DNA from: Gillisia mitskevichiae
GTDB taxonomy: Bacteria > Bacteroidota > Bacteroidia > Flavobacteriales > Flavobacteriaceae
Assembly (NCBI RefSeq): GCF_003634585.1
Contig: NZ_RBLG01000008.1
Location: 1-33,908, forward strand
Length of the DNA: 33,908 nt
Direction of reading: 5' to 3'
Made by a program: the position numbers and the translations under genes. How positions within the stretch are numbered: position 1 is the stretch's first letter; every line of letters starts with the position of its first letter. Of this stretch, positions 78 to 33,768 are shown piece after piece. The notes beneath the pieces were generated by a model. It was not told the origin of the DNA. It searched no databases and saw only the letters and a list, made by a program, of their open reading frames with translations.

Positions 78-205
78 CAACGGTCTTGGTTAAGGCAAGT
101 AGCGTGGAGTAGGGACGCGTTCTTGTCGGATTTGTTGTTTGTTACTTGGTGTCTAAATTAGCACTTTTCACCTAATTGCCCGCTATTTGCGCTTAACCGA
201 TGTTG
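78..205 (-). repeat. attC-like site 1
   Basis: 128 bp. Left half CAAC-GGTCTT-GGTTAAGGC, right half GCGCTTAACC-GAT-GTTG. The right flank (GTTGTACCAC) pairs with the left flank of the site at 1016 (GTGGTACAAC), defining the cassette between them. Confidence 0.85.
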
Positions 206-219
206 TACCACGTTTTTTA

Positions 220-780
220 TCAGCTTAAGACTAGTCCAAATAGAATTAGAATCATAGTTGAAATTAATAAAGGTTGTTTTACTATATATATTCTAGATAT
301 ATTATTCCAGTTATTCATAAACATATAAATAGGTAAAAAATATAGAAATATTCCATATTCCTCTTCTAGGTTTAAGCTAAATCCATCAAAATTAAATTGA
401 AAGTAAATTTGATAAAATCGGAGCAATACTAAGAAGATTATTCCAAAAGTGAAAATTGCGTTTATTTGCGCATATTGAGTTTTTAATTTTTCCTTTCTAT
501 TTTTCACTTTAATATTACTCATCCAAATATAGGTTGTAAAACAAAATCCAATCGATGCTGCTATTAGTCCGATTAAAAAGGAATTGTAAAAAGTGAGTTC
601 TGAATTTAAAAATTTTGTCCAATTTCCATCAACAATAGCATACGTTATATCTTTGGTTTTAGTTAAAAGTCGCAGAAGAATATTAATTATAAAACCATAA
701 CCAAATCCAATTAAAATTCCTGAGTAGAATCGAAATTTTCCAATTTCTATAATTTGGAATTTAGATTTTATTTTTCTCAA
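220..780 (-). CDS. Multi-pass membrane protein of unknown function
   Basis: A 186-aa protein with about five hydrophobic segments (roughly residues 19-38, 64-84, 106-126, 142-155 and 168-186). A basic loop at about 88-101 (KVKNRKEKLK) is probably cytoplasmic. I do not recognise a family. It is the downstream gene of a two-gene cassette: the 52-codon gene at 822-980 precedes it by about 40 bp, and its stop lies 14 bp from the attC at 78-205. No promoter is evident between the genes, so co-transcription is likely. ATG start at 780. Confidence 0.7.
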   Translation of the reverse strand: MRKIKSKFQIIEIGKFRFYSGILIGFGYGFIINILLRLLTKTKDITYAIVDGNWTKFLNSELTFYNSFLIGLIAASIGFCFTTYIWMSNIKVKNRKEKLKTQYAQINAIFTFGIIFLVLLRFYQIYFQFNFDGFSLNLEEEYGIFLYFLPIYMFMNNWNNISRIYIVKQPLLISTMILILFGLVLS

Positions 781-821
781 TGGGTTGAAATTTGATAATC
801 TTAATTAATTCAATTAATGGT

Positions 822-980
822 TTAGAAAAAATCAGAGTATTCTAGTTTTCCATTTTTCATCATTTGTTCTACAGCTCTATCAAATTCAGAATGCTCATAA
901 GTAAAGTTACTTGGGATTTCCCTATTTGACCAAAGTTGGTAAAGTTCATTTTCAGCTTCTTCTTTTGTCATTTTACTCAT
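822..980 (-). CDS. Small acidic hypothetical protein
   Basis: I place the start at the ATG at 980 (MSKMTKEEAENELYQLW), giving 52 aa. An in-frame extension to 1007 adds only a basic, unlikely leader. The protein is charged and soluble, with a predicted N-terminal helix and the ending GKLEYSDFF. No family is recognised. It is the first gene of its cassette, about 35 bp from the attC at 1016, followed by the membrane protein at 220-780. A regulatory or partner role for that protein is possible but is only inference. Confidence 0.6.
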   Translation of the reverse strand: MSKMTKEEAENELYQLWSNREIPSNFTYEHSEFDRAVEQMMKNGKLEYSDFF

Positions 981-1015
981 AAATCTCTTTTTTAGTACTA
1001 AACTCAAATGTGGTA

Positions 1016-1142
1016 CAACGGTCTTGGTTAAGGCATGGTGCGTGGAGTAGGGACACTTTCTTGTCAGCTTAGTTGTTTGTTACTTGGTGTCTAAAATAGC
1101 TCTTTTTCGACTAAGCCCGCTATTTGCGCTTAACCGATGTTG
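1016..1142 (-). repeat. attC-like site 2
   Basis: 127 bp, GGTTAAGGC/GCGCTTAACC type, with the interior variant TTTTTCGACTAAGCCCGC shared with sites 3, 7 and 31. Its right arm GTTGTAAACTGTAGC pairs with GCTATTGTTTACAAC at 2228. Confidence 0.85.
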
Positions 1143-1193
1143 TAAACTGTAGCGAAACATAAAAATTCATTATATTTCTAAAAATAAATTTAA

Positions 1194-2207
1194 ATGAATT
1201 ACTCCAAATTTATTGCACTCATCGTTATAATTCTTTCAGTTTCATGCGAACAAAATCAAACTAAATCTTTTTCTCTTACTGGTACAACTTCCAACATTCC
1301 AGATTCCACCTTAGTTTTCTTTCACAACTTATTTAATGGTAAATCTATTGATTCTGCAATTGTATTAGATAATAAATTTCAATTTGAAACTAAATTTGAA
1401 AAATATCCTAATTGGGTAATGATGCATACTTTAGGTGAACAAGACTTTACTGAAGTATGGGTTGAAAATAGTCCGATGATTTTCGATGCATCAGATTCAA
1501 ATTTTAGTGATGGTAAAATTTTCGGATCTAATTCGCAAAAAGTAGCGAATGAATATGACAATATTGACTGGTTTTCCAAGCAGTCCGATGAGTCGAATCT
1601 CTTAAAATTAACGTTTGTAAAGGAGCATTCAAATTCAATCATTGCAGCAAAAGTCATTGCCTTTAACGCTGATCGGTGGGGTAGAGAGAAATCTAAATTA
1701 CTTTATGATGGTTTGTCGCCAGAAATGAAGAACAGCATATTTAAAGAACGAATCGGCAAAGTAATTAATTCTAAACAACCTACTCTTGGAACTAAATATG
1801 TAGATTTCATTTTAAAAGATACCTCAAGAGTTAATCAACAATTTTCTAAATTAACTGGCGAACTAACTTTATTGCAATTTTGGGCAAGTGGGTGTGGATA
1901 CAGCAGGATGGATAATCTTTACCTTAAAGAGGCACATCGATTATTTTCTAAGAAAGGATTTGAAATAGTTGGGGTTTCAATTGATAAGGATAAGTCACAG
2001 TGGAAAAATGCCATAATAAATGATTCTCTTTCCTGGATAAATCTAAGTAGTTTAAAAGGTGAGAATGGAGAAGTTAAACAAGCATATGGAATTTTTTCTA
2101 CTCCAAATAATTTTTTATTCGATTCCAATGGAGTTTTGATTGCCAGAAGTATCGAGGGTGAAAATCTAGTTGAAGAAATTGAAGATTATTTCAGCAATAA
2201 AAATTGA
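1194..2207 (+). CDS. TlpA/thioredoxin-like lipoprotein with a CxxS active site
   Basis: A 337-aa protein that starts with a lipoprotein signal peptide; the lipobox LSVSC puts the lipid cysteine at residue 18. Residues about 25-125 resemble the DUF4369 domain that precedes thioredoxin folds in many Bacteroidota proteins. The C-terminal ~130 residues are thioredoxin-like: FWASGCGYSR at the active site, GFEIVGVSIDKD, then TPNNFLFD in the cis-Pro region. The family normally has CxxC (WCGPC or WCPPC). Here it is C234-G-Y-S237, so the resolving cysteine is lost and the preceding Trp is Gly. It may be a monothiol enzyme, an isomerase-like protein or a redox-inactive one. It is coded on the plus strand, against the array direction, alone in its cassette. 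Confidence 0.85.
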   Translation: MNYSKFIALIVIILSVSCEQNQTKSFSLTGTTSNIPDSTLVFFHNLFNGKSIDSAIVLDNKFQFETKFEKYPNWVMMHTLGEQDFTEVWVENSPMIFDASDSNFSDGKIFGSNSQKVANEYDNIDWFSKQSDESNLLKLTFVKEHSNSIIAAKVIAFNADRWGREKSKLLYDGLSPEMKNSIFKERIGKVINSKQPTLGTKYVDFILKDTSRVNQQFSKLTGELTLLQFWASGCGYSRMDNLYLKEAHRLFSKKGFEIVGVSIDKDKSQWKNAIINDSLSWINLSSLKGENGEVKQAYGIFSTPNNFLFDSNGVLIARSIEGENLVEEIEDYFSNKN

Positions 2208-2238
2208 TAAACTCAGGAGTTTCTTGAGCTATTGTTTA

Positions 2239-2364
2239 CAACGGTCTTGGTTAAGGCAAGTAGCGTGGAGTAGGGACACGTTCTTGTCGGCTTTGTTGTT
2301 TTTTTCTAAGGATCTAAAATACACTTTTTCGACTAAGCCCGCTATTTGCGCTTAACCGATGTTG
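2239..2364 (-). repeat. attC-like site 3
   Basis: 126 bp, GGTTAAGGC/GCGCTTAACC type, interior variant with TTTTTCGACTAAGCCCGC. The right arm GTTGCATAGTGTTAC pairs with GTAATACTTTGCAAC at 2791, with differences at positions 7 and 11. Confidence 0.85.
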
Positions 2365-2451
2365 CATAGTGTTACGATCTTCAAAATATGTTGTTTTGTT
2401 GTCATCGTTTTTATGTCATTTTAATCTTTTCTAAATCTCAAATAAATTTTT

Positions 2452-2611
2452 CACGTCTGAGTAAGAGTCAGTTTGAATTCTTTTTTGGTTCTTATTATTT
2501 TGTCATTTTTCACGTCTGATTGAAAGTCAGAGTTTTCATGCTTGAGTAAAAGTCAGAATAAAAAGTGGAATGCATCTGTTTTTACATTTTTCAGGTTCGA
2601 GTAAGAATCCG
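2452..2611 (+). repeat. Four degenerate 20-bp direct repeat units
   Basis: Units at 2452-2471 (CACGTCTGAGTAAGAGTCAG), 2511-2530 (CACGTCTGATTGAAAGTCAG), 2537-2556 (CATGCTTGAGTAAAAGTCAG) and 2592-2611 (CAGGTTCGAGTAAGAATCCG). Each follows a run of T. A partial fifth unit (CATTCTGAGTAATAC) sits at 2783-2797 against the next attC. The first two units contain CTGA...TCAG inverted ends that could form tiny hairpins. Confidence 0.75.
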
Positions 2612-2722
2612 CGCACTGATTTTAGTATTATTCAATTTTTCTAATTTTAACCTTTGTAAACTTTTCACATAAACCTCAGATTTGTGTAGTTTATATTTTT
2701 CACTAAATTCTTGAAAAAGTCA

Positions 2723-2737
2723 ACGCAACAGTTGCGT
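2723..2737. repeat. Perfect short hairpin ACGCAAC-A-GTTGCGT
   Basis: Seven complementary bases on each side of one A. It contains CAAC...GTTG, the same outer core as the attC sites, but without spacers or L boxes. This may be chance. Confidence 0.5.
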
Positions 2738-2801
2738 GAGATTGGTTTTTTAATTTAGGAATTGTTTTTTTTTTGAGTTTTTCATTCTGAGTAATACTTT
2801 G

Positions 2802-2929
2802 CAACGGTCTTGGTTAAGGCAAGTAGCGTGGAGTAGGTACGCGTTCTTGTCGGCTTAGTTGTTTTTTACTTGGTGTCTAAAATAATACTTTTCACCAGAA
2901 TGCCCGCTATTTGCGCTTAACCGATGTTG
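2802..2929 (-). repeat. attC-like site 4
   Basis: 128 bp, GGTTAAGGC/GCGCTTAACC type; GGGAC is changed to GGTAC inside. The right arm GTTGCCCACAGTTTA pairs with TAAATTGTGGGCAAC at 3776. Confidence 0.85.
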
Positions 2930-2937
2930 CCCACAGT

Positions 2938-3771
2938 TTATTGTTCTTCAGAAGTCTCCCAGCCATCATAATCACCATTTAACATTCTTGCTTTTTCAAA
3001 TAATTTTAGTGTGTGTTCATCAATTTCATTGTATCCAATTTTATCAATTCTTGAAATTGAAATCACATATTTATAATTTATAGATGGTTCCGCTTTTTTC
3101 TTAAGGTTAATTTTATAATTATTTGATATAGCGAATTTTTCAAACTTTTCTAAATCTTCTTTATTATTAAAATATACCCAATGAACGACTTCTCTTTCTT
3201 TGGTTAAATTATCGCCTTTTTTTTCTAGTTGTTCAACAACTCTTCTGTTTTGAATAATTTGCAATTGTGAGGGATTCGGGTAAAGGAAGTTAAAATATCC
3301 ATTCCAAGTTTTATCTTCATCTATTCCAAAAGCAAATTTATATTCGGGATAATTTCTCATTACATCAACAACAGCTTTTTCAAAATTACCATTATCGGAA
3401 TAGAAATATAAATCTCTTAATCCATTTGAAGTTAATCTTCCGACATATGTGTAATTAAGTTTTTCAGCCTTTAAATTATCAATGATATCATCTTCTATTT
3501 TCCACAATTTCTCGGCTTCCTCATTATCAGAAAGTCCATTTTCCTTAGGATTGAGCATTTTTATTGAAACGTAAATGACATTTTCTTGATTTTCAATTGG
3601 AGCAATAGAATTTAAATTTAAGTCTGTTGAAATAGAACTTAAATTATTGTCAACATTAGAAAAATAAAATGTCCAATCTGGTTGATATTTATTTACTGAT
3701 TTCTTTTGTCCAAATATGTTGCTGAATATTCCCATTGTTAAAGTCAGAAGTAATATTGTTTTTCGGATCAT
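2938..3771 (-). CDS. Exported DUF695-RraB two-domain protein
   Basis: 277 aa. A signal peptide (to about residue 21, IFG/Q) precedes a DUF695-type domain at about 30-170, with conserved-looking pieces WTFYFSNVD, YVGRLTSNGLRDLYFY and W156-NGYFNFLYP. It is followed by an RraB-like domain at about 180-275, with the family's REVVHWVYF and the C-terminal GDYDGWE (266-272). RraB of gammaproteobacteria binds and inhibits RNase E. This copy carries a signal peptide, so it probably acts outside the cytoplasm and is unlikely to regulate an RNase E. It is alone in its cassette: the start is 15 bp from the attC at 3787 and the stop 8 bp from the attC ending at 2929. Domain calls are confident, the role unknown. 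Confidence 0.82.
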   Translation of the reverse strand: MIRKTILLLTLTMGIFSNIFGQKKSVNKYQPDWTFYFSNVDNNLSSISTDLNLNSIAPIENQENVIYVSIKMLNPKENGLSDNEEAEKLWKIEDDIIDNLKAEKLNYTYVGRLTSNGLRDLYFYSDNGNFEKAVVDVMRNYPEYKFAFGIDEDKTWNGYFNFLYPNPSQLQIIQNRRVVEQLEKKGDNLTKEREVVHWVYFNNKEDLEKFEKFAISNNYKINLKKKAEPSINYKYVISISRIDKIGYNEIDEHTLKLFEKARMLNGDYDGWETSEEQ

Positions 3772-3786
3772 AGTTTAAATTGTGGG

Positions 3787-3914
3787 CAACGGTCTTGGTT
3801 AAGGCAAGTAGCGTGGAGTAGGGACGGCTTCTTGTCAGCTTTGTTGGTTTTTACTTGGTCTCTAAAATATCACATTTTAACGGAATGCCCGCTATTTGCG
3901 CTTAACCGATGTTG
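3787..3914 (-). repeat. attC-like site 5
   Basis: 128 bp, GGTTAAGGC/GCGCTTAACC type. The right arm GTTGTAATTTGTT pairs with AATAAATTACAAC at 4464. Confidence 0.85.
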
Positions 3915-4472: not shown

Positions 4473-4600
4473 CAACGGTCTTGGTTAAGGCAAGTAGCGT
4501 GGAGTAGGGACACGTTCTTGTCGGCTTAGTTGTTTTTTACTTGGTCTCTAAAATATTACTTTTCATTGGAATACCCGCTATTTGCGCTTAACCGATGTTA
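4473..4600 (-). repeat. attC-like site 6
   Basis: 128 bp, GGTTAAGGC/GCGCTTAACC type, ending GTTA instead of GTTG. The right arm GTTAGCTACCGTAT pairs with ATATGGTAGCTAAC at 5277. The stop codon of the minus-strand gene (4598-4600) lies inside this arm. Confidence 0.85.
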
Positions 4601-5286: not shown

Positions 5287-5412
5287 TAACGGTCTTGGTT
5301 AAGGCAAGTAGCGTGGAGTAGGGACGCGTTCTTGTCGGCTTTGTTGTTTTTTACTAGGTATCTAAAATACACTTTTTCGACTAAGCCCGCTATTTGCGCT
5401 TAACCGATGTTA
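5287..5412 (-). repeat. attC-like site 7
   Basis: 126 bp, starts TAAC and ends GTTA, GGTTAAGGC/GCGCTTAACC type with the TTTTTCGACTAAGCCCGC interior. The right arm GTTACCCATTGTTTTT pairs with AAAAATAATGGGTAAC at 6170. Confidence 0.85.
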
Positions 5413-6181: not shown

Positions 6182-6308
6182 TAACGGTCTTGGTTAAGGC
6201 AAGTAGTGGGAGTAGGGTTGCTAACTTGTCGGCTTAGTTGTTTTTTACTTGATGTCTAAAATATCACTTTTCACCGGAATACCCGCTATTTGCGCTTAAC
6301 CGATGTTG
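6182..6308 (-). repeat. attC-like site 8
   Basis: 127 bp, starts TAAC. GGTTAAGGC/GCGCTTAACC type with a degenerate left interior (AAGTAGTGGGAG, GGTTGCTAAC). The right arm GTTGGCTAATGGTTTTAT pairs with ATAAAACTATTTGCCAAC at 6767, with differences at positions 7 and 11. Confidence 0.82.
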
Positions 6309-6780: not shown

Positions 6781-6908
6781 CAACGGTCTTGTTTAACGTA
6801 AGTGGCGTGGAGTAGGGACACGTTTTTGTCGGCTTTGTTGTTTGTTAATTGGTCTCTAAAATTAAACTTTTCACCACAATGCCCGCTATTTGCTGTTAAA
6901 CGATGTTG
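6781..6908 (-). repeat. attC-like site 9
   Basis: 128 bp, the GTTTAA type: left CAAC-GGTCTT-GTTTAACG, right CTGTTAAAC-GAT-GTTG, a compensated change of the L boxes. The right arm GTTGGCAACTGGC pairs with GCTTGTTGCCAAC at 7536, with differences at positions 10 and 11. Confidence 0.85.
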
Positions 6909-7544: not shown

Positions 7545-7672
7545 CAACGGTTTTGGTTAAGGCAAGTAGCGTGAAGTAGGGACACGTTCTTGTCGGCTTA
7601 GTTGTTCTTTACTTGGTATCTAAAATAGCACTTTTCACTAAAATGCTCGCTATTTGCGCTTAACCGATGTTG
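7545..7672 (-). repeat. attC-like site 10
   Basis: 128 bp, GGTTAAGGC/GCGCTTAACC type with spacer GGTTTT. The right arm GTTGTTGCTAGTTTTTT pairs with AAAAAAATTAGCTACAAC at 8403, with differences at positions 6 and 11. Confidence 0.85.
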
Positions 7673-8416: not shown

Positions 8417-8544
8417 CAACGGTCTTGTTTAACGCAAGTGGCGTGGAGTAGGGACGCGAACTTGTCGGCTTTGTTGTTTGTTATTTGGTGTCTAAAATAT
8501 TACTTTTTCCTGAAACACCCGCTATTTGCTGTTAAACGATGTTG
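8417..8544 (-). repeat. attC-like site 11
   Basis: 128 bp, GTTTAACGC/GCTGTTAAAC type. The right arm GTTGGCTGTAGTCC pairs with GGATTACAGCCAAC at 9250, differing only at position 11. Confidence 0.86.
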
Positions 8545-9259: not shown

Positions 9260-9387
9260 CAACGGCTGCGGTTATCGCAAGTTGCGGGAGTAGGGACGCG
9301 GACTTGTCGGTTTAACCATTTTCTTTCCTGGTTTCTAAAATTACAATTTTTCCTCGATCACCCGTAATTTGAGATGAACCGCTGTTG
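9260..9387 (-). repeat. attC-like site 12 (divergent)
   Basis: 128 bp with a distinct sequence: left CAAC-GGCTGC-GGTTATCGC, right GATGAACC-GCT-GTTG. It keeps the 6/3 spacer asymmetry and AGTAGGGACGCGGACTTGTCGG in part. The right arm GTTGTGTGCTGTTGTTT pairs with AAACAATAGCATCACAAC at 10082 with one indel. Confidence 0.82.
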
Positions 9388-10095: not shown

Positions 10096-10223
10096 CAACG
10101 GTCTTGGTTAACGCAAGTAGCGTGGAGTAGGGACGCTTTCTTGTCGGCTTTGTTGATTTTTGCTTGGTGTCTAAAATAGCACTTTTCACCAAATTGCCCG
10201 CTATTTGCTGGTAACCGATGTTG
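10096..10223 (-). repeat. attC-like site 13
   Basis: 128 bp, left GGTTAACGC, right GCTGGTAACC. The right arm GTTGTAACCAGTATTTT pairs with AAAATATTGGTTACAAC at 11198, differing only at position 11. Confidence 0.86.
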
Positions 10224-10759: not shown

Positions 10760-11149
10760 TTGGAATTTCTCAATAATAAAAAATATAAACTTTTTGGATT
10801 AGTATTATTTGTTATTCTAGCTTATTTCATAAGTTCAAAAACTGAAAAGGTTAAGAATAATGAATTTAGTCAAAATTCGGAGGAAACCGAGGCTACCATT
10901 ATAGATTATCAAATTAAAGGTGCTGGAGCCGGTCTAGATCATATAATTACATTTGAATATCAGATTGATAATCAATTTTATCAAAAGACAGTGAATACTT
11001 CTATTTGGTTTACTAACTGCTATGAATCAAGGGAATGTATTGGGAAAATATTTATTTTATATTATAAATCTGATAATCCTAATGATGTAAGAATTGATTT
11101 TAATCGTCCAATTCGTAATTTTTCAAAAATTAAGAAAATAGACTCTTAA
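10760..11149 (+). CDS. Membrane-anchored protein with CX5CIG motif (paralogue B)
   Basis: About 129 aa from a TTG start (EFLNNKKYKLFG). No in-frame ATG is available before the anchor, and a stop lies just upstream. The anchor is at about 12-25. The soluble part has ATIIDYQIKG, HIITFEYQIDNQFYQKTV, TNCYESRECIGK and YYKSDNPNDVRIDF, matching paralogue A motif by motif. The two genes are divergent, separated by 104 bp that must hold both promoters. Cys-X5-Cys conservation suggests a disulfide outside the cytoplasm. The TTG start may mean weak translation or a lost ATG. Confidence 0.72.
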   Translation: MEFLNNKKYKLFGLVLFVILAYFISSKTEKVKNNEFSQNSEETEATIIDYQIKGAGAGLDHIITFEYQIDNQFYQKTVNTSIWFTNCYESRECIGKIFILYYKSDNPNDVRIDFNRPIRNFSKIKKIDS

Positions 11150-11210
11150 TTTTTTTTCAAAAAATGAACTATAATTTTATAGTTCGGAAATTTCGTTAAA
11201 ATATTGGTTA

Positions 11211-11338
11211 CAACGGTCTTGGTTAACGCAAGTGGCGTGGAGTAGGGACGGCTTCTTGTCGGCTTTGTTGGTTTTTACTTGGTGTCTAAAATAGCGCTTT
11301 TCACCGGACCGCCTGCTATTTGCCCGTAACCGATGTTG
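11211..11338 (-). repeat. attC-like site 14
   Basis: 128 bp, left GGTTAACGC, right GCCCGTAACC. The right arm GTTGTGCTTTCGTTATTT pairs with AAATAATGAAGCACAAC at 12153 with one indel. Confidence 0.85.
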
Positions 11339-11362
11339 TGCTTTCGTTATTTTTGAACTATT

Positions 11363-12100
11363 TTATTCATCTTCTAACTTTTCATCTATTAAATCGATGA
11401 TTTCTAGACTGTTGGTTTTATATGATTTTAAATCTGGGATATACCCTTTGTAATACATTTCATAAAGTACTTTAGTTGTGTTTCTATAGCCAAAATCGGT
11501 TAAGGCATATTCTATGAAAGCATCAGTATAATTGGGAGAACCCCTAAAGTTAACATCAGCAAACCAAGGTTGTGTATATTTTAAATTTTCTAAAAAGGAA
11601 TTTGTATTTGTGGCTAATTCCTGTAAATCAACAGAAATTTCATTCGTTAAATCTAAATACAAACTATTTAATTTGATTGATAAAGAATCACTAGAGGTGT
11701 TGTTTTGTTGGTTGTAGTTTTGTAGTAGTTCACTACCGTTTTTTCTTAATTTAATTTCAGGGAATCCGAAATTTACATATATGCAATTTTTACAATTTTT
11801 AAAATCTTCTTTTTTTCTTGTTTTGTTAATAATTGCCAAATACTCTTTTTCCATAGGTTGCGAAGAATTAACAATTTTATCAATGTTTTTTATGTCTTGC
11901 TGTAAATCTGCTTTTATGGTTGCATAAATATTTTTTAACACTTTTTTTTGTTGCTGTTCTTGGTTCCAATTGTTTATTGAGAGAGCAATTAAAATTCCAA
12001 TAACGACAAGAATTATCTCTCCAATTGCGTAAATCAGATACTTGCTGAATTTATTTTCAGAGAGTAAATTTCGCCTAATTTTTCTAAAGAATTTAATCAT
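11363..12100 (-). CDS. DUF6090 family membrane protein
   Basis: 245 aa. The first ~50 residues are the family hallmark: a basic start (MIKFFRKIRRNLLSENKFS), YLIYAIGEIILVVIGILIAL as the single membrane helix (about 22-41), then SINNWNQEQQQKK leading into a long helical region. The C-terminal ~190 residues are an extracytoplasmic helical domain with a CKNCIY pair at about residue 103. DUF6090 proteins are abundant in Flavobacteriia and their function is unknown. The length fits the family. Single gene in its cassette. Confidence 0.9.
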   Translation of the reverse strand: MIKFFRKIRRNLLSENKFSKYLIYAIGEIILVVIGILIALSINNWNQEQQQKKVLKNIYATIKADLQQDIKNIDKIVNSSQPMEKEYLAIINKTRKKEDFKNCKNCIYVNFGFPEIKLRKNGSELLQNYNQQNNTSSDSLSIKLNSLYLDLTNEISVDLQELATNTNSFLENLKYTQPWFADVNFRGSPNYTDAFIEYALTDFGYRNTTKVLYEMYYKGYIPDLKSYKTNSLEIIDLIDEKLEDE

Positions 12101-12165
12101 GAGAAGAGTTTGGTTTCTCTAAAGATATGACTTTTATGTAATTAGGCTGTTTAAATAATGAAGCA

Positions 12166-12293
12166 CAACGGTCTTGGTTAAGGCAAGTAGCGTGGAGTAG
12201 GGACGCGTTATTTTCGGCTTAGTTGTTTGTTACTTGGTGTCTAAAATAGCACTTTTCATCAGAATGCCCGCTATTTGCGCTTAACCGATGTTG
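12166..12293 (-). repeat. attC-like site 15
   Basis: 128 bp, GGTTAAGGC/GCGCTTAACC type. The right arm GTTGTAGCCAGTT pairs with AATTGGCTACAAC at 12829. It belongs to the first copy of the duplicated cassette. Confidence 0.86.
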
Positions 12294-12837
12294 TAGCCAG
12301 TTTTCAGTTCTTAGTTTTCGTGTTGGTCAACTTTAATTACTTTTCCATTATCGAAATAAATATCGAGAACATCTGGATCAATATTCACAAGACCTGGAAG
12401 ATGCCCAAGATCATATGAAATGTGGTTATTATCATATGAATAGAAATCATCACCTAATAATTCTACAATTTCAACTTTTGATTTTCCTAACAAAAGCTTA
12501 CTCTCTATAATATCTTCTGACATTTTAAATCTTTCATCTTTTTCCGTAATCCATTGTTGTTTGTCAAAATCTTGACTGGGATAATATGAAATTGAATACA
12601 TCCATATCATGATTGATAAAACATACATTATTGGGCTTATAAAGAGAGTTATTACAAATGTGATTAACCATCTATTTTTCTCAGTTCCAAGTTTTAATTT
12701 TTTTAAAAATTCACGAATTAAAAAATAAACTGGAAGAGAAATTAATAATATTATAATCGGAACTTCGATACCCATAAATTAATGTTGTTTATTAAAAATC
12801 AGATTTTGTTCTTTATTCGATTTTCGCTAATTGGCTA
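12294..12837 (-). repeat. Duplicated cassette, copy 1
   Basis: A 544-bp cassette body nearly identical to 15714-16257, with the same length and no net indels. Identity stops at the outer arms: the flanking repeats differ (sites 15/16 against 18/19). Confidence 0.92.
12311..12775 (-). CDS. Two-TM protein with BamE/SmpA-like domain, copy 1
   Basis: 154 aa. Two membrane helices (about 5-22 and 36-62) are followed by a ~75-residue domain: DERFKMSEDIIESKLLLGKSKVEIVELLG, then ISYDLGHLPGLVNIDPDVLDIYFDNGKVIKV. The pattern 'M-x-x-D...L-x-G-x-S-x-x-E-V-x-x-L-L-G...Y-x-L-G...L-x-I-x-F' is that of small BamE-like (SmpA/OmlA) folds found in many membrane-tethered proteins. It differs from the second copy (15731-16195) at 8 of 154 residues, spread along the protein, and both frames are intact, so both may be functional. 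Role unknown. Confidence 0.8.
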   Translation of the reverse strand: MGIEVPIIILLISLPVYFLIREFLKKLKLGTEKNRWLITFVITLFISPIMYVLSIMIWMYSISYYPSQDFDKQQWITEKDERFKMSEDIIESKLLLGKSKVEIVELLGDDFYSYDNNHISYDLGHLPGLVNIDPDVLDIYFDNGKVIKVDQHEN

Positions 12838-12965
12838 CAACGGTCTTGGTTAAGGCAAGTAGCGCGGAGTAGGGACGCAATCTTGTCGGCTTAGTTGTTT
12901 TTTACTTGGTCTCTAAAATAATACTTTTCACAAGAATGCCCGCTATTTGCGCTTAACCGATATTG
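12838..12965 (-). repeat. attC-like site 16 (mutated core)
   Basis: 128 bp, GGTTAAGGC/GCGCTTAACC type, but the terminal GTTG reads ATTG (12962-12965), so the AAC triplet of the R box is AAT on the minus strand. GCGTGG is GCGCGG. The right arm still pairs weakly with TTGTTTACAAC at 14751. Confidence 0.85.
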
Positions 12966-14757: not shown

Positions 14758-14885
14758 CAACGGTCTTGGTTAAGGCAAGTAGCGTGGAGTAGGGACGGCT
14801 TCTTGTCGGCTTAGTTGTTTTTTACTTGGTGTCTAAAATAGCACTTTTCACCAGAATGCCCGCTATTTGCGCTTAACCGATGTTG
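14758..14885 (-). repeat. attC-like site 17
   Basis: 128 bp, GGTTAAGGC/GCGCTTAACC type. The right arm GTTGTAAAACGTTTTT pairs with AAAAATGTTTTTACAAC at 15573 with one indel. Confidence 0.86.
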
Positions 14886-15571: not shown

Positions 15572-15585
15572 TAAAAATGTTTTTA

Positions 15586-15713
15586 CAACGGTCTTGGTTA
15601 AGGCAAGTAGCGTGGAGTAGGGGCGCGTTCTTGTCGGTTTAGTTGTTTGTTACTTGGTGTCTAAAACATCATTTTTAACTTAAAAGCCTGCTATTTGCTG
15701 GTAACCGATGTTG
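15586..15713 (-). repeat. attC-like site 18 (hybrid L boxes)
   Basis: 128 bp. The left half GGTTAAGGC is of the common type, but the right half GCTGGTAACC is of the type normally found with GGTTAACGC, so the L boxes pair imperfectly. The interior is also diverged (CTAAAACATCATTTTTAACT). The right arm GTTGTAGCCAGTT pairs with AATTGGCTACAAC at 16249. Confidence 0.85.
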
Positions 15714-16257
15714 TAGCCAGTTTTTAGTTCTTAGGTTTCGTGTTGGTCAACTTTAATTACTTTCCCATTTTCGAAATAAATGTCGAGAACATCTGGATCA
15801 ATATTCACAAGACCGGGTGGATGCCCAAGATCATATGAAATGTGGTTATTATCATATGAATAGAAATCATCACCTAATAATTCTACAATTTCAACTTTTG
15901 ATTTTCCTATCAAAAGCTTACTCTCAATAATATCTTCTGACATTTTAAATCTTTCATCTTTTTCCGTAATCCATTGTTGGTTATCAAAATCTTGTCTGGG
16001 ATAATATGAAATTGAATACATCCATATCATGATTGATAAAACATACATTATTGGGCTTACAAAGAGAGTTATTACAAATGTGATTAACCATCTGTTTTTT
16101 TCAGTCCCAAGTTTTAATTTTTTTAAAATTTCACGAATTAAAAAATAAACTGGAAGAGAAATTAATAATATTATAATCGGAACTTCAATACCCATAAATT
16201 AATGTTGTTTTTTTAAAATCAGATTTTGTTCTTTATTCGATTTTCGTAAATTGGCTA
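15714..16257 (-). repeat. Duplicated cassette, copy 2
   Basis: 544 bp, nearly identical to 12294-12837, separated from it by two unrelated cassettes. This is the expected result of cassette excision from a sister copy and reinsertion. Confidence 0.92.
15731..16195 (-). CDS. Two-TM protein with BamE/SmpA-like domain, copy 2
   Basis: 154 aa, the second copy of the protein at 12311-12775: two N-terminal membrane helices and the same BamE-like C-terminal domain. Differences from copy 1 include F to I and I to V in the helices. In the soluble part they are S to R, K to N, L to I, L to P (GHPPG) and D to E, with N to T at the last residue. All are single substitutions with no frameshift, so the copies diverged after an exact duplication. 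The attC that follows each copy is not the same, see site 18. Confidence 0.8.
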   Translation of the reverse strand: MGIEVPIIILLISLPVYFLIREILKKLKLGTEKNRWLITFVITLFVSPIMYVLSIMIWMYSISYYPRQDFDNQQWITEKDERFKMSEDIIESKLLIGKSKVEIVELLGDDFYSYDNNHISYDLGHPPGLVNIDPDVLDIYFENGKVIKVDQHET

Positions 16258-16386
16258 CAACGGTCTTGTGTATGGTTAGTTGCGTGTTTAAGCAACTAAT
16301 TTAGTAAACAAAAACGAACGCGAGAAAATTCCGAAGGAATTTTCCAAATAAGCAACGACCAAAGCAATTAATTATACACGGTGTTG
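16258..16386 (-). repeat. attC-like site 19 (divergent, with inner hairpin)
   Basis: 129 bp. It keeps CAAC-GGTCTT and 3-nt-spacer-GTTG, but the L boxes are GTGTAT and ATACAC and the interior is unrelated to the other sites. A perfect hairpin GAAAATTCC-GAA-GGAATTTTC lies at 16324-16344. The right arm GTTGTGCTTTCGTG pairs with CATGAAGCACAAC at 18444 with one indel. Confidence 0.82.
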
Positions 16387-18451: not shown

Positions 18452-18579
18452 CAACGGTCTTGTTTAACGCAAGTGGCGTGGATTAGGGACGCAAACTTGT
18501 CGGCTTAGTTGTTTTTTACTTGGTCTCTAAAATAACACTTTTCATCACAATGCCCGACATTTGCTGTTAAACGATGTTG
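18452..18579 (-). repeat. attC-like site 20
   Basis: 128 bp, GTTTAACGC/GCTGTTAAAC type; CCCGCTATT is CCCGACATT. The right arm GTTGGGCTTAGTGCTT pairs with AAGCATTATGCCCAAC at 19923, with differences at positions 8 and 11. Confidence 0.85.
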
Positions 18580-19934: not shown

Positions 19935-20062
19935 CAACGGTCTTGGTTAAGGCAAGTAGCGTGGAGTAGGGACGAGTTCTTGTCGGCTTTGTTGTTTGTT
20001 TATTGATGACTAAAATATCACTTTTTGTTCAAAAGCCAGCTATTTGCGCTTAACCGATGTTG
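19935..20062 (-). repeat. attC-like site 21
   Basis: 128 bp, GGTTAAGGC/GCGCTTAACC type with interior changes (GTTTATTGATGAC, AAAAGCCAGC). The right arm GTTGTGTACAGTTTTT pairs with AAAAATTGTACACAAC at 21806. Confidence 0.86.
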
Positions 20063-21817: not shown

Positions 21818-21945
21818 CAACGGTCTTGGTTAAGGCAAGTAGCGTGGAGTAGGGACGCGTCCTTGTCGGCTTAGTTGTTTTTTAATAGGTATCTAAAATA
21901 GCACTTTTCACCAGAATGCCCGCTATTTGCGCTTAACCGATGTTG
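21818..21945 (-). repeat. attC-like site 22
   Basis: 128 bp, GGTTAAGGC/GCGCTTAACC type. The right arm GTTGTGTGCAGTT pairs with AATTGCACACAAC at 22397. Confidence 0.86.
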
Positions 21946-21956
21946 TGTGCAGTTTT

Positions 21957-22382: not shown

Positions 22383-22405
22383 TTTTGTTGTTTTTTAATT
22401 GCACA

Positions 22406-22531
22406 CAACGGTCTTGTTTAACGCAAGTGGCGTGGAGTAGGGTCAGGTTCTTGTCAGCTTAGTTGTTTTTTACTTGGTCTAAAATAACACTTTTCACCAA
22501 AATGCCCGCTATTTGCTGTTAAACGATGTTA
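22406..22531 (-). repeat. attC-like site 23
   Basis: 126 bp, GTTTAACGC/GCTGTTAAAC type, ends GTTA; GGTGTCTAAAAT is shortened to GGTCTAAAAT. The right arm GTTATAACCAGTATT pairs with AATATTGGTTATAAC at 23884. Confidence 0.85.
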
Positions 22532-22540
22532 TAACCAGTA

Positions 22541-23875
22541 TTAATTACTCAATGATTCTTTCTCATCTAAATTAATATTATACCAATCAATTTTTCTTGA
22601 ATAATACATCACAATACATAGTATAATGAACATACCCGAGCTACCAATAAGTAAAGCATAGTCCTCAAGTTGAATTATAGTAAAAATGAATGAATACATT
22701 ATAAATAATATCCCGAAAATTAAAAATCCTATCTGCTTGGATTTTAGAATTGCCATAGTATATAAGGATACTAGAGAGAGAGTTAAAATAGAAGCAATTA
22801 TATACGCAAAATTGAAAGTGATATGTTCACTAAATGATAAAAGCAACACATAAAATACTATAATTGCCATACCGACTAATAAATATTGAATGGGATGAAT
22901 AAAAACTTTTCTCATAATTTCTACAAAGAAAAAGGTCAAAAAAGTTAACGCTAAAAATAGTATAGCATATCTCGCAACTCGATAGGATTTCTTATAATTG
23001 TCAACAGGTAATAACAAATCTGTTCCAAAAGTGCTTATATCAATATTATATTTACTGCCCACCCATTCTTGTGGGTAATTTCTATTCAAATGAAGAATAT
23101 TCCATTTTGAATCAAAACCATCATCTGTGACAGTTCTATCATCGGGTAAATATGTACCTGTAAAACTCGGAGTTGTCCAGTTTGATTTAATTCTAACATC
23201 TGTAGTTTTTCCTACTGGTGTAAAATAGAGATATTGACTTCCTTTTAAGTCTATTTCAGTTGAGAATAAATAAGTTTGCATACTATCATTTGCTATTGGT
23301 ACAACAGCATTAATTCCACTTGAAATAATTTCCTTCGTTGATGTTCCTGAATTAAACGAAATATTTTGATTATTCCATTTTATGGATACCTGTTTCTCAA
23401 TTCCTTTTAAATCATTTATACCAATATTAAGAGTTGCTTTGTCAAAATGAACATCCTTTTTGTCAATATCAAGATTTTTAAAATCAATATTATCAAAATT
23501 TCCTTCTATTTTAAGTTTAGATTCATAAACAACAACCTCATAAATACCTCTATTTCGTTTCTCTGGCTGGATAATACCCGAGATATTCAATTTTTCAGGT
23601 AAGAAATGAGCCCATTGTTTTATTTTAATTATTTCATTAACTGAATCTTTCTTGTTATACTTATTCACATATTTATCAAAAGGGATCGAAATAAATGGTC
23701 CTGAAATTGTTTGTCCTTTTCCCCATTTGGAGCTTACTTCATCAATTGCACTTGATTGAACCTGTTCTCTTTCATGAATTAAATTCTCCACCATTGATGT
23801 TGGAATCATCAATACTAAAATTAAAAAAATAATAATTCCAATTTTGAAGTAAATGTTTGACTTTAATTTTTTCAT
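22541..23875 (-). CDS. creD: CreD family inner membrane protein
   Basis: 444 aa, the normal length for CreD. The N-terminal membrane helix (KIGIIIFLILVLMIPTSMV) runs directly into the family hallmark LIHEREQVQSSAIDEVSSKWGKGQTISGPFISIPF. A large extracytoplasmic beta-rich domain (about 35-300) follows, then about six C-terminal membrane helices (300-435) separated by short loops. CreD is a cell-envelope protein of the CreBC regulon in enterobacteria, linked to envelope integrity and colicin or beta-lactam responses; in Bacteroidota its role is less clear. An intact full-length gene of this size is unusual cargo for an integron cassette. ATG at 23875. Confidence 0.92.
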   Translation of the reverse strand: MKKLKSNIYFKIGIIIFLILVLMIPTSMVENLIHEREQVQSSAIDEVSSKWGKGQTISGPFISIPFDKYVNKYNKKDSVNEIIKIKQWAHFLPEKLNISGIIQPEKRNRGIYEVVVYESKLKIEGNFDNIDFKNLDIDKKDVHFDKATLNIGINDLKGIEKQVSIKWNNQNISFNSGTSTKEIISSGINAVVPIANDSMQTYLFSTEIDLKGSQYLYFTPVGKTTDVRIKSNWTTPSFTGTYLPDDRTVTDDGFDSKWNILHLNRNYPQEWVGSKYNIDISTFGTDLLLPVDNYKKSYRVARYAILFLALTFLTFFFVEIMRKVFIHPIQYLLVGMAIIVFYVLLLSFSEHITFNFAYIIASILTLSLVSLYTMAILKSKQIGFLIFGILFIMYSFIFTIIQLEDYALLIGSSGMFIILCIVMYYSRKIDWYNINLDEKESLSN

Positions 23876-23894: not shown

Positions 23895-24022
23895 TAACGG
23901 TCTTGTTTAACGCAAGTGGCGTGGAGTAGAGACGCGTTCTTGTCGGCTTTGTTGTTTATTAATTAGTCTCTAAAATTACACTTTTTACCAGAATGCCCGC
24001 TATTTGCTGTTAAACGATGTTG
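23895..24022 (-). repeat. attC-like site 24
   Basis: 128 bp, starts TAAC, GTTTAACGC/GCTGTTAAAC type. The right arm GTTGTGGTGCGTATT pairs with AATATGCACCACAAC at 24540. Confidence 0.86.
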
Positions 24023-24550: not shown

Positions 24551-24678
24551 CAACGGTCTTGGTTAAGGCAAGTAGCGTGGAGTAGGGACGCGTTCTTGTC
24601 GGCTTAGTTGTTTTTTACTTGGTGTCTAAAATAGCACTTTTTACCAAATTGCCCGCTATTTGCGCTTAACCGATGTTG
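24551..24678 (-). repeat. attC-like site 25
   Basis: 128 bp, GGTTAAGGC/GCGCTTAACC type. The right arm GTTGTTAACTGTATTT pairs with AAATATAGTTTACAAC at 25600, with differences at positions 6 and 11. Confidence 0.86.
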
Positions 24679-25611: not shown

Positions 25612-25739
25612 CAACGGTCTTGGTTAACGCAAGTAGCGTGGAGTAGGGACGCGAACTTGTCGGCTTTCTTGTTTGTTAGTTGATGTCTAAAATAACACTT
25701 TTCACCAGAATACCCGCTATTTGCTGATAACCGATGTTA
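25612..25739 (-). repeat. attC-like site 26
   Basis: 128 bp, left GGTTAACGC, right GCTGATAACC, ends GTTA. The right arm GTTACAAACTGTTGC pairs with GCAATTGTTTGTAAC at 26373, with differences at positions 10 and 11. Confidence 0.85.
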
Positions 25740-26383: not shown

Positions 26384-26508
26384 TAACGGTCTCGGTTAAC
26401 ACAAGTTGCGGGAGTAGGGACGCGGACTTGTCGGCTTAGTTGTTTTCTTGTTAGGATACTAAATTACAATTTTTCGATAAAACCCGTTATTTGTGATAAC
26501 CGTTGTTG
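26384..26508 (-). repeat. attC-like site 27 (divergent)
   Basis: 125 bp: left TAAC-GGTCTC-GGTTAACAC, right GTGATAACC-GTT-GTTG, with GTTGCGGGAG as in site 12. The right arm GTTGTGGTTAGTATTT pairs with AAATATTAACCACAAC at 27204. Confidence 0.84.
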
Positions 26509-27215: not shown

Positions 27216-27343
27216 CAACGGTCTTGGTTAAGGCAAGTGGCGTGGAGTAGGGACGCGTTCTTGTCGGCTTTGTTGTTTTTTACTTGGTGTCTAAAATAAT
27301 ACTTTTCATCAGAATGCCCGCTATTTGCGCTTAACCGATGTTG
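27216..27343 (-). repeat. attC-like site 28
   Basis: 128 bp, GGTTAAGGC/GCGCTTAACC type. The right arm GTTGTATGCAGTTTA pairs with TAAATTGCATACAAC at 28343. Confidence 0.86.
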
Positions 27344-28353: not shown

Positions 28354-28481
28354 CAACGGTCTTGGTTAAGGCAAGTAGCGTGGAGTAGGGACGCGAACTT
28401 GTCGGCTTAGTTGTTTTTTACTTGGTGTCTAAAATAGTACTTTTCACTAGAATGCCAGCTATTTGCGCTTAACCGATGTTG
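28354..28481 (-). repeat. attC-like site 29
   Basis: 128 bp, GGTTAAGGC/GCGCTTAACC type. The right arm GTTGTGTGTAGTTTT pairs with AAAATTACACACAAC at 29179. Confidence 0.86.
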
Positions 28482-29189: not shown

Positions 29190-29317
29190 CAACGGTCTTG
29201 GTTAAGGCAAGTAGCGTGGAGTAGGGACGCAAACTTGTCGGCTTAGTTGTTTGTTTCTTGGTGTCTAAAATATAACTTTTCAATCGATTGCCCGCTATTT
29301 GCGCTTAACCGATGTTG
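29190..29317 (-). repeat. attC-like site 30
   Basis: 128 bp, GGTTAAGGC/GCGCTTAACC type. The right arm GTTGCCTGTAGTTTTT pairs with AAAAATTACTGGCAAC at 30270, with differences at positions 7 and 11. Confidence 0.86.
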
Positions 29318-30281: not shown

Positions 30282-30408
30282 CAACGGTCTTGGTTAAGGC
30301 AAGTGGCGTGGAGTAGGGACGCGTTCTTGTCGGCTTAGTTGTTTTTTACTTGGTCTCTAAAATAGCACTTTTTCGACTAAGCCCGCTATTTGCGCTTAAC
30401 CGATGTTG
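30282..30408 (-). repeat. attC-like site 31
   Basis: 127 bp, GGTTAAGGC/GCGCTTAACC type with the TTTTTCGACTAAGCCCGC interior. The right arm GTTGTAACCAGTGA pairs with TCATTGGTTACAAC at 31111. Confidence 0.86.
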
Positions 30409-31120: not shown

Positions 31121-31248
31121 CAACGGTCTTGGTTAAGGCAAGTAGCGTGGAGTAGGGACACGTTCTTGTCGGCTTAGTTGGTTTTTACTTGGGGTCTAAA
31201 ATATCACTTTTCACTGGAATGCCCGCTATTTGCGCTTAACCGATGTTG
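31121..31248 (-). repeat. attC-like site 32
   Basis: 128 bp, GGTTAAGGC/GCGCTTAACC type. The right arm GTTGGCTGCTTTGTTTA pairs with TAAACATTGCTGCCAAC at 32080 with differences at positions 7, 10 and 11; the position-11 base is T here rather than the usual G. Confidence 0.86.
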
Positions 31249-32065: not shown

Positions 32066-32092
32066 TATTTATCTCTGTTTAAACATTGCTGC

Positions 32093-32224
32093 CAACGACT
32101 CGCGGTTATGTTTTGTTGCCGTGGGTGGAGAAATGAGGTTGCAAACCGACTTTTCGGGAACCCTAAGGCAATCAAACAATTTAAAAAGCCCTGCCGTTAG
32201 GCAATAAAAGCATAATCGCTGTTC
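32093..32224 (-). repeat. attC-like site 33 (divergent)
   Basis: 132 bp of a different sequence family: left CAAC-GACTCG-CGGTTATG, right CATAATCG-CT-GTTC. It keeps the long-left, short-right spacer asymmetry. The right arm GTTCACAGCTGTAACC pairs with GGTTATCGCTTTGAAC at 33051, with differences including the usual G/A at position 11. Confidence 0.75.
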
Positions 32225-32291: not shown

Positions 32292-32747
32292 ATGGCAATT
32301 ATTTACGATATGGAAAGAATTATAGAAAGACAAAAACTTTCTTCACAAGGATTATTTTATAGTGTTCAACGAATTGATTTGTTGATTGTATCAATTAGTG
32401 GTGCAGGAATTTATTTGTGTTTAGAAACATTAAAGTACTTAAAAGATAATAACCTTGAATTGGGTAATTTAATTAAGTGGTCTGGTGGTATATTATTATT
32501 AGCAATCATTATTAATTTTGTTTCTCAATTTTTAGGTAATAAATCAAACTACTATGATTACTTGTATTGTGGCAGTATCTTGGATGCAGAAAACAATCCT
32601 GACGATGCCCAACAAGCTGAAATAAATAAGTATGATTGTATATCTGATGTATATGATAAGTTTACAACAATATTCAATTATGCAAGTGCAATATTAATGC
32701 TGTCAGGATTAATCCTTTTAATTTCTTATTTCTTGTTTATTTTTTAG
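32292..32747 (+). CDS. Three-TM membrane protein of unknown function
   Basis: 151 aa. Membrane helices lie at about 26-43 (DLLIVSISGAGIYLCLE), 61-79 (IKWSGGILLLAIIINFVSQ) and 130-151 (FNYASAILMLSGLILLISYF). A short basic amphipathic N-terminus (ERIIERQKLSSQG) and an acidic loop (AENNPDDAQQAEIN) are visible. No family is recognised. It is on the plus strand and is followed by an inverted attC-like site at 32905-32954, so in this composite cassette gene and inner site have matching orientation. ATG at 32292. Its last codons overlap the small minus-strand ORF at 32737. Confidence 0.68.
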   Translation: MAIIYDMERIIERQKLSSQGLFYSVQRIDLLIVSISGAGIYLCLETLKYLKDNNLELGNLIKWSGGILLLAIIINFVSQFLGNKSNYYDYLYCGSILDAENNPDDAQQAEINKYDCISDVYDKFTTIFNYASAILMLSGLILLISYFLFIF

Positions 32748-32862: not shown

Positions 32863-32904
32863 ACTTATCTTTTAAAGTTCTTTAAATCTTTTTAAGTTAC
32901 CTAA

Positions 32905-32954
32905 GTCAGCGTTAGCTGCAAGGGCTTTTTAAATTGAATAACCGCGAGTCGTTC
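32905..32954 (+). repeat. Nested inverted attC-like site (short)
   Basis: The right part AATAACCG-CGAGTC-GTTC is the reverse complement of the left end of site 33 (GAACGACTCGCGGTTAT type), with the 6-nt spacer now on the right. The inner AGGGCTTTTTAAATTG is shared with site 33 in inverse. The left part AGC-GTTAGCTGC resembles the inverse of site 33's right end, but its AAC is replaced by GTC. It reads as an attC in the opposite orientation with most of its interior deleted. Confidence 0.55.
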
Positions 32955-33062
32955 AAAGCGATTAAGTGTTGTAGTGACAACGTAATGCAATGGAGTTTCG
33001 CAACACGCACCGAACCAACAACATGACTTTTCCGTCATGTTTTGTGTTGAGGTTATCGCTTT
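32955..33062. repeat. 108-bp segment with 12-bp inverted ends and an inner hairpin
   Basis: Bounded by GTTCAAAGCGAT (32951-32962) and its exact inverse ATCGCTTTGAAC (33055-33066). It contains the perfect hairpin ACATGAC-TTTTCC-GTCATGT at 33021-33040 and no ORF. It could be a gene-less mini-cassette or the leftover of one. Confidence 0.5.
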
Positions 33063-33190
33063 GAACGGTCTTGGTTAAGGCAAGTGGCGTGGAGTAGGGA
33101 CGCAAACTTGTCGGCTTAGTTGTTTTTTACTTGGTGTCTAAAATAGCACTTTTTACCAAATTGCCCGCTATTTGCGCTTAACCGATGTTG
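33063..33190 (-). repeat. attC-like site 34
   Basis: 128 bp, starts GAAC, GGTTAAGGC/GCGCTTAACC type. The right arm GTTGGCTGCAGTT pairs with AATTGCTGCCAAC at 33632, with differences at positions 7 and 11. Confidence 0.86.
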
Positions 33191-33199
33191 GCTGCAGTT

Positions 33200-33616
33200 T
33201 TAATCAGTTGCCATTGATTGATTATATTCGATACTGTAATGATTTTGATAAAGCAAAACATCTCTTAAACCCAGTAAAATTATCCAAACGGGAACAAAGT
33301 GAAATCCGATTTTAAGAAGTTCATTAGTATTGGGATTAGTAAGAATTGAATAACTCATTAATAATCCAATAAGTATCGATGAAATACCTGTTGTCAATTT
33401 AACTGTAGAAGGAATCGTTTTTTTGTAAACTCTACGCAGGAGTATTAATATCATCAAAGAAATATAAATTGCCAAAATTGAAAATCCAAATATATTCCTA
33501 GGTTCAAAATCAGTGTCTAAAAAGAAAACTTTTATTACAGCTATAATTAATAAGAGTGTAAAAAAAATACGTGAAAAAATCCAGAACTTGTCAGTTTTTA
33601 GGTAAAATAATTTCAT
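33200..33616 (-). CDS. Four-TM membrane protein of unknown function
   Basis: I start at the ATG at 33616 (MKLFYLKTDKFWIFSR), giving 138 aa. The frame is open to a TTG at 33643 inside the attC border. Hydrophobic segments lie at about 12-28, 43-60, 74-92 and 104-120, with short basic loops (LLRRVYKKT) and a polar tail NHYSIEYNQSMATD. No family is recognised. Stop 9 bp from site 34. It resembles the other small multi-TM cassette proteins here in size and style, without detectable sequence similarity. Confidence 0.68.
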   Translation of the reverse strand: MKLFYLKTDKFWIFSRIFFTLLLIIAVIKVFFLDTDFEPRNIFGFSILAIYISLMILILLRRVYKKTIPSTVKLTTGISSILIGLLMSYSILTNPNTNELLKIGFHFVPVWIILLGLRDVLLYQNHYSIEYNQSMATD

Positions 33617-33640
33617 TTTTTGTTTTGTTTTAATTGCTGC

Positions 33641-33768
33641 CAACGGTCTTGGTTAAGGCAAGTGGCGTGGAGTAGGGACGCTTTCTTGTCGGCTTAGTTG
33701 TTTTTTAGTTGGTCTCTAAAATAGCACTTTTCACACGAATGCCCGCTATTTGCGCTTAACCGATGTTG
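33641..33768 (-). repeat. attC-like site 35
   Basis: 128 bp, GGTTAAGGC/GCGCTTAACC type. Its right arm GTTGTAAATAGTTTTT starts a cassette that runs off the window. Confidence 0.86.

Follow-up and report, generated by a model that had tools for sequence, protein, structure and literature searches.

This study concerns a cassette array in the flavobacterium Gillisia mitskevichiae. The stretch of DNA analyzed, hereafter the window, is the whole of contig NZ_RBLG01000008.1 (C8; 33,908 bases, 30.5% G+C) from a genome of 3.585 Mb. It carries, at positions 79–33767, an array of 35 attC-like repeats of 123–130 bp that form 34 complete cassettes, the genes of which lie mostly on the minus strand. The two ends of each cassette pair with each other except at position 11, where two nearly fixed letters give a G·T wobble on the plus (bottom) strand and an A·C mismatch on the top strand; the same mark recurs in the inner arm of the repeat. 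On balance, the sequence evidence leans toward a reading in which both arms are full-length half-sites of an integrase and the wobbles, confined to the bottom strand, mark that strand for an enzyme without a strand-reading helix.

Repeats were delimited from AAC to GTT as read on the plus strand, and each repeat was assigned two outer (R) arm halves of 14 nt, one closing with its AAC and the other opening with its GTT. We compared the right flank of each repeat with the reverse complement of the left flank of the next repeat, counting positions from GTT. The original prediction, made from the letters of the window, had described 34 cassettes whose ends agree over about the first ten positions from GTT and then differ as G against A in 33 and as T against A in one, and these counts were recovered exactly. 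The G/A difference is present without gaps in 29 of the 34 cassettes and, with one indel, also in cassettes 12, 14, 17, and 19, leaving cassette 32 as the lone T/A exception. The match from GTT to about position 10 holds in general, except that cassette 16 starts with ATT instead of GTT. Pairing does resume past position 11, as had been claimed, with a run of 2–7 letters from position 12 on in the 30 indel-free cassettes. Cassette 22 provides an example: its left end (21942–21955, plus strand, GTTGTGTGCAGTTT) has G at position 11, and the reverse complement of its right end (22396–22409, plus strand) matches to position 13, except for A at position 11.

Ends of different cassettes served as a control (n = 33 in the window, with cassette 16 left out). 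At positions 5–10, the own ends matched with a frequency of 0.73–1.00, compared with 0.24–0.42 for ends of different cassettes; at positions 13–15, the values were 0.64–0.97 and 0.38–0.43, respectively. The own ends thus pair clearly better than the control in both intervals. Positions 4 and 12 are nearly fixed (control match of 0.73 and 0.78), and the match at position 11 was 0.00 both within cassettes and in the control. The own-end pattern was the same in 80 cassettes from elsewhere in the genome and in 198 cassettes from seven other genomes; over the entire comparison, 16 neighboring pairs without an AAC or GTT end were skipped.

By the terms of the original prediction, related arrays with no bias at position 11 would have refuted it; the bias is kept in such arrays. 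With one indel allowed, the R arm is G/A at position 11 in 32 of 33 cassettes of the window, 78 of 80 in the rest of the genome, 190 of 198 in the seven genomes (six of which belong to the same genus), and 39 of 43 in other genera. Without gaps, the difference is found in 252 of 281 distinct arm pairs. Across 311 cassettes, the letter at position 11 is G in 287 right flanks and A in the reverse complement of 308 left flanks, and the same cassettes hold 169 distinct seven-letter arm cores. Position 11 therefore consists of two fixed letters and does not covary, whereas most of the surrounding arm letters vary and covary. The translation start was considered as a cause of the A at position 11 and discarded, since the spacing between this letter and the start codon is variable (judged by eye).

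In the genus of the window, the pairing fades after positions 15–16. In other genera (36 cassettes, selected on positions 1–10 alone), the arms match at a frequency of 0.83 at position 14 (control 0.51) and 0.11 at position 15 (control 0.12). Counted from the presumed cut between positions 1 and 2, an arm that ends at position 14 is 13 nt long. The half-site of tyrosine recombinases such as Cre measures 13 bp.

We also selected arm pairs 3′ of integrase relatives without using position 11, in a scan that covered 52 of 80 named loci. At least one pair was found in 24 of the 52 loci, with none in Mesonia, and 59 of 67 pairs were G/A on the predicted strand. A control scan upstream of the integrases returned 40 rows (20 pairs, counted on both strands), 14 of which were of the G/A type. 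In Rufibacter (L126), the one repeat between consecutive cassettes that was read 3′ of the integrase spans about 59 nt from AAC to GTT, less than half of the 126 in the window, and keeps the G/A mark. Integrase relatives with one G/A-marked arm pair each were also found in records labeled as other phyla: a metagenome-assembled genome labeled Spirochaetota (L128), a Firmicutes record (L132), and a Peptococcaceae record (L157). Either transfer or a binning error would account for these labels.

The mark is not confined to the cassette ends. The inner (L) arm was aligned with an offset of AAC plus 7 nt in the 5′ half of the repeat and of AAC plus 4 nt in the reverse-complemented 3′ half; 22 of 350 repeats without an AAC or GTT end were dropped, and position 11 helped to choose the gap in the window, the genome, and the relatives. 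Under these settings, the L arm is G/A at position 11 in 33 of 34 repeats of the window; the rest of the genome gives 85 of 86, and the relatives give 200 of 208. For other genera, the covariance model had given 64 repeats, three of which fell in other loci; of the remaining 61, we used 56 (four having no AAC or GTT end), with the spacers free to vary by one and position 11 taking no part in the choice of gap. Of these 56, 53 carried G/A, and a further G/A repeat brings the count to 54 of 57. In repeat 22, the 5′ half of the L arm (21829–21843, plus strand, GTTAAGGCAAGTAGC) has G at position 11, with T opposite in the 3′ half. Position 6 of the L arm is also G/A in 41 of 56 repeats of other genera. 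A G·T wobble at the same distance in both bottom-strand arms points to something that the integrase meets in both half-sites.

The longest ATG open reading frame (ORF) lies on the minus strand in 30 of 34 cassettes of the window, and the integrase gene that adjoins repeats of the window kind on another contig, described below, is also on the minus strand; the plus strand is therefore the bottom strand. The mismatches outside position 11, counted in arms with at least 9 of 13 matches (the cassettes are related, and the counts are not independent), number 269 in the wide set. Read on the bottom strand, they comprise 141 T·T versus 7 A·A and 38 G·T versus 6 A·C and are thus mostly of the kind least harmful to plus-strand pairing. 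The original prediction had called the other mismatches nearly always T against A, which stands for the window (13 of 17 at positions 1–10 of the 30 indel-free cassettes) and is weaker in the wide set.

Folding with DNA parameters gave the same polarity. The circle sites, in which the two ends of one cassette flank its repeat, had a mean energy of −26.2 kcal/mol on the bottom strand and −22.8 kcal/mol on the top strand, with the bottom strand better in 34 of 34. For array sites, whose R halves come from different cassettes, the mean was −18.8 kcal/mol, and the bottom strand was better in 31 of 34; in 33 of 34 cases, the array site folded less well than the circle site. When A was placed at R position 11 in silico, the mean gap between the strands decreased from 3.4 to 2.6 kcal/mol, and the circle sites became about 2 kcal/mol more stable (−26.2 to −28.2). 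Together, these data support the strand reading of the original prediction, namely that the plus strand folds as the bottom strand of a minus-oriented array, the functional part of which we infer from sequence. The L-arm mark, the atypical integrase, the attI-like site, and the classical control go beyond that prediction.

The integrase is a tyrosine recombinase of 381 amino acids encoded on the minus strand of contig C7 (4368–5513), where it adjoins five repeats of the window kind (171–3849); C7 is presumably joined to the contig of the window. Its nearest named relatives are mostly from Flavobacteriaceae and other Bacteroidota, and the named records include Mesonia, Zunongwangia, Algibacter, Winogradskyella, Seonamhaeicola, Rufibacter, and Algoriphagus. 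Relatives were found in 56 of 99 related genomes and, by integrase matches alone, in 151 of the 295 genomes sampled from the class. With a covariance model, repeats were detected 3′ of the integrase at 16 of 30 loci, on the strand expected (E < 0.01). In 16 of the 30 loci, an attI-like AAC-NN-GTT followed by an A/T-rich stretch lay at a distance of 34–148 nt from where the integrase match ends, and AAC-NN-GCT occupied this position in a 17th; of the 13 loci without such a site, 7 have less than 300 nt of flank. The arm of the first cassette beside the attI-like site was G/A at position 11 in 17 of 17 loci.

The array-linked integrase lacks the I2 insertion that defines the integron integrase IntI. 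It scored 220.5 bits against NF040815 (XerA type; cut-off 220) and 201 bits against TIGR02249 (integron integrase), below the cut-off of 265. Its alignment to PDB entry 4A8E (E = 9.4e-42) contained no I2-like insertion. The distance from the K motif to HxLRH was 64–66 residues in 19 of 21 array-type integrases, the other two aligning without an insertion, and 107–108 residues in 7 of 9 classical IntI proteins, the rest being unparsed by the motif search. In a phmmer comparison with IntI4 (PDB entry 2A3V), the alignment split in two and left chain residues 181–247 unmatched. In a tree with long branches and two outgroups, IntI formed one clade (100/100), and the array-type integrases fell outside it without forming a single clade. 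Of 395 genomes sampled from the phylum, 105 have a classical IntI that scores above the cut-off, only one matching genome being marked as of the same class.

These observations suggest the following mechanism. An excised cassette would be a circle, the presumed substrate, in which the two ends flank the single attC-like repeat. The bottom strand of this circle site would fold back on itself as a hairpin in which the outer R arm and the inner L arm each serve as a full-length tyrosine recombinase half-site, consisting of GTT, seven free letters, the wobble, and about three further pairs, with the free letters needing only to pair with each other. At position 11 of both arms, G lies on the outward-reading strand and T on the other, and in the R arm, the strand with T would be the one that is cut, the place of the cut being set by analogy with classical attC. 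The bottom hairpin would thus present G·T in each arm, the top hairpin A·C, and the double-stranded R arm of attI, once the first cassette is in, T·A. If the recombinase required T at position 11 on the strand that is cut, or an unbroken helix across this position, it would accept attI and the bottom hairpin and refuse the top one. The wobble would in this way supply the strand choice that classical integrons take from extrahelical bases read by the I2 helix of IntI, a helix missing from the array-linked integrase.

Several observations weigh against a strand mark. Removal of the R-arm mark left the bottom strand ahead in 33 of 34 folds, so the mark is not the sole source of strand asymmetry, and the differences in fold energy amount to just a few kcal/mol and ignore the protein. 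When pairs were selected on positions 1–10 alone (23 loci), just 45 of 60 were G/A, with the remainder scattered. The L arm of attI shows no fixed letter at position 11 (judged by eye). The L arm of the window repeats contains a one-base bulge in 31 of 34 cases (at position 7 in 28), which could act as a classical extrahelical base. The classical comparison consists of one array. Finally, the fixed letters at position 11 could be an ordinary base contact rather than a strand mark.

This last possibility is the strongest alternative, although we regard it as rather unlikely. Position 11 would then be a plain base-specific contact made by the integrase roughly a helical turn away from the cut, requiring a hairpin half-site with T on one strand and G opposite, and strand choice would be left to the L-arm bulge and the unpaired central spacer, as it is in classical attC. 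The fixed, noncovarying letters suit such a contact, as does the bulge in the window repeats, and unequal alignment spacers of 7 versus 4 nt fit 45 of 56 repeats of other genera. Moreover, the portion of Bouvier 2009 (PMC2727003) available to us states that the spacer can impose polarity even without extrahelical bases. However, a Watson-Crick pair would satisfy a contact equally, as A opposite T does in the occupied attI arm, and the bulge is absent from 44 of 56 repeats of other genera. The retention of G·T in the R and L arms of about 300 repeats, together with the strand bias of the other mismatches, fits folding of one strand better.

An improbable alternative holds that the wobble is a flexible point or a stop that limits the strength of the stem or bends the arm so that it can be opened by SSB, replication, or the integrase, with the strand bias as a by-product. 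Its location near the outer end of both arms and the greater stability of the circle sites after in silico removal of the R-arm wobble are compatible with this role. Any mismatch would do for this purpose, yet position 11 is almost solely G/A, and the T·T mismatches elsewhere differ between cassettes. Alternatively, the identity of the arms and the G/A mark might be traces of how cassettes are made, for example by copying one end from the other, without selection as a recombination site. The many distinct arm cores mean that cassettes carry their own letters, as this account expects; we nevertheless find it very hard to credit, given that the same mark is found in the L arm, where no cassette end lies, that the mismatches are strand-asymmetric, and that the arms stop at position 14 in several genera, near the half-site length of tyrosine recombinases. 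Chance or base composition can safely be set aside: the low G+C content and the nearly fixed positions 4 and 12 raise chance matching there, but ends of different cassettes match far less than own ends at positions 5–10, and the mark is absent from the Vibrio control described below.

If the wobble is a strand mark, its reader may be sought in the N-terminal part of the integrase, which has about 85 extra residues with a recurrent W-x(n)-W/F/Y pattern. The N terminus of L128 passes the cut-off of the Pfam family HARP (PF07443; 28.6 bits, E = 1e-6), the sole protein scanned to do so, and that of L117 scores 19 bits (E = 0.001), below the cut-off of 25. With a profile of 21 N termini searched against the PDB, the SMARCAL1 HARP structure (4O66) ranked second, at E = 0.31. 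The integrase N terminus of the window's own genome gave no match to HARP, and HARP is not among the 25 families listed for 20 members of A3. An N-terminal HARP-like domain that reads folded DNA is therefore suggestive only. It is conceivable, if somewhat doubtful, that Bacteroidota possess an integron-like lineage of their own, in which an integrase without I2 recombines sites folded from single strands, with strand polarity written as G·T wobbles in both arms (plus L-arm position 6 in other genera) and read by the HARP-like N terminus; such a lineage might have arisen independently or represent a state preceding I2.

All 35 repeats of the window were annotated on the plus strand. Repeats 1–12 lie at 79–204, 1017–1141, 2240–2363, 2803–2928, 3788–3913, 4474–4599, 5288–5411, 6183–6307, 6782–6907, 7546–7671, 8418–8543, and 9261–9386. 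Repeats 13–24 follow at 10097–10222, 11212–11337, 12167–12292, 12839–12964 (repeat 16, ending with ATT and not GTT), 14759–14884, 15587–15712, 16259–16385 (repeat 19, divergent), 18453–18578, 19936–20061, 21819–21944, 22407–22530, and 23896–24021. The remaining repeats 25–35 occupy 24552–24677, 25613–25738, 26385–26507 (repeat 27, divergent), 27217–27342, 28355–28480, 29191–29316, 30283–30407, 31122–31247, 32094–32223 (repeat 33, strongly divergent), 33064–33189, and 33642–33767. Repeat 33, which fills the gap between the repeats starting at 31122 and 33064, was revealed only by the nonmatching arms of its neighbors. Its start (32094–32109, AACGACTCGCGGTTAT) recurs inverted at 32938–32953, beyond a plus-strand ORF (32292–32747), as if the cassette with this ORF carried an extra inverted repeat half.

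The covariance model, with up to 150 candidates scored, placed at least 134 repeats of the window kind in the genome, on contigs C6, C7, C8, C9, C10, C11, and C12. Several of these contigs are short; the array is therefore much larger than its part in the window and was probably split during assembly. Searches of the window for Rfam families and tRNAs found nothing, and the repeat had no match in plasmid or phage records. The starts of cassettes 15 and 18 (12165–12464 and 15585–15884) are 92% identical over 300 nt, with identical first ten arm letters, likely reflecting a duplication. Three cassette genes on the minus strand gave protein matches: the product of 20495–21820 matches AbiU (PADLOC) and AIPR (Pfam PF10592), making it a possible phage defense gene; that of 18592–19371 matches the candidate defense family PDC-M24B and DUF1828; and 22541–23875 encodes a full-length CreD inner membrane protein (Pfam, 536 bits).

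In classical sites, according to the available part of Bouvier 2009 (PMC2727003), an extrahelical G sets the choice of strand. Excerpts of PMC7790495 attribute the single-strand recombination of integron integrases to the I2 helix and describe I2 as necessary for cassette capture and found in no other protein, and those of PMC9668308 state that the standard integron search demands the IntI-specific domain. Bacteroidota are named among the phyla with integrons in the accessible text of PMC8618304. The insertion is given as incompletely conserved in an integron-like subgroup in an extract of PMC8138268; integrases that lack it may thus already have been observed. Among the matches listed from open-licence literature, titles and starts of abstracts contained no description of the wobble mark or of such a Bacteroidota system. 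In the present system, large arrays with foldable sites lie beside an integrase without I2, and, if the proposed reading is true, cassette arrays of the class are undercounted by present tools. Should the wobble be a strand mark, it would constitute a second solution to strand choice, one that can be read from the sequence and tested with a one-letter change in each arm.

We finally compared the system with those already known. Of the traits that characterize integrons, a tyrosine recombinase stands beside the array (on C7, with the same layout in 16 of 30 related loci), the repeats are attC-type imperfect palindromes with R and L arms and a foldable single strand, a putative attI site lies beside the integrase, and the cassette genes run mostly in one direction; the IntI-specific I2 insertion is missing. 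The catalytic part of the integrase finds its best matches, by family and by structure, among XerA-type recombinases (NF040815; PDB entries 4A8E and 5HXY). Xer enzymes resolve chromosome dimers by acting at dif. The array-linked integrase differs from XerA in adjoining a cassette array and in its extra N-terminal residues; the likeness to the HARP domain (PF07443, SMARCAL1, PDB entry 4O66) is seen in the N terminus of L128 and not in that of the window's genome. Treponema-type integrons, compared by description only, resemble the window system in that the integrase points toward the array, typical Spirochaetota IntIs being generally reverse-oriented in the available text of PMC9668308, and differ from it in having an IntI in the strict sense.

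For a classical array, 17 classical IntI genes from the phylum were searched on their divergent side with a home-made attC finder, in stretches of which three were shorter than 3 kb, and no array-like series was returned; the specificity of the finder was poor (30 matches on the plus and 19 on the minus strand of the window), and it was dropped in favor of the sedentary chromosomal integron of Vibrio sp. HDW18 (NZ_CP049914.1, annotated integron integrase at 10953–11915). That integron shares with the window a long, mostly co-oriented array of palindromic repeats of about 120 bp ending in AAC/GTT, own-end pairing, and an integrase beside the array. The 56 cassettes compared include copies of one another, and their own ends matched at 0.91–1.00 at positions 1–9, 0.64 at positions 10 and 11, and 0.39 at position 12, reaching background from position 13. 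Complementarity of the classical R box, put at about 7 bp in the original prediction, is thus longer, about 9–12 nt in this one array. Unlike the window, the Vibrio array has no fixed mismatch at position 11 and no resumed pairing, its integrase has the IntI insertion (108 residues versus 65 in the array-linked integrase), and the array is divergent from the integrase, whereas that of the window system lies 3′ of the integrase in the same direction. Own-end pairing is a trait shared by cassettes; the Vibrio array shows neither the mark nor the full-length arm. Judged by these sequence features, the window array is part of an integron-like cassette system, one that would work like an integron and departs from the strict definition in one defining respect, the IntI-specific domain.

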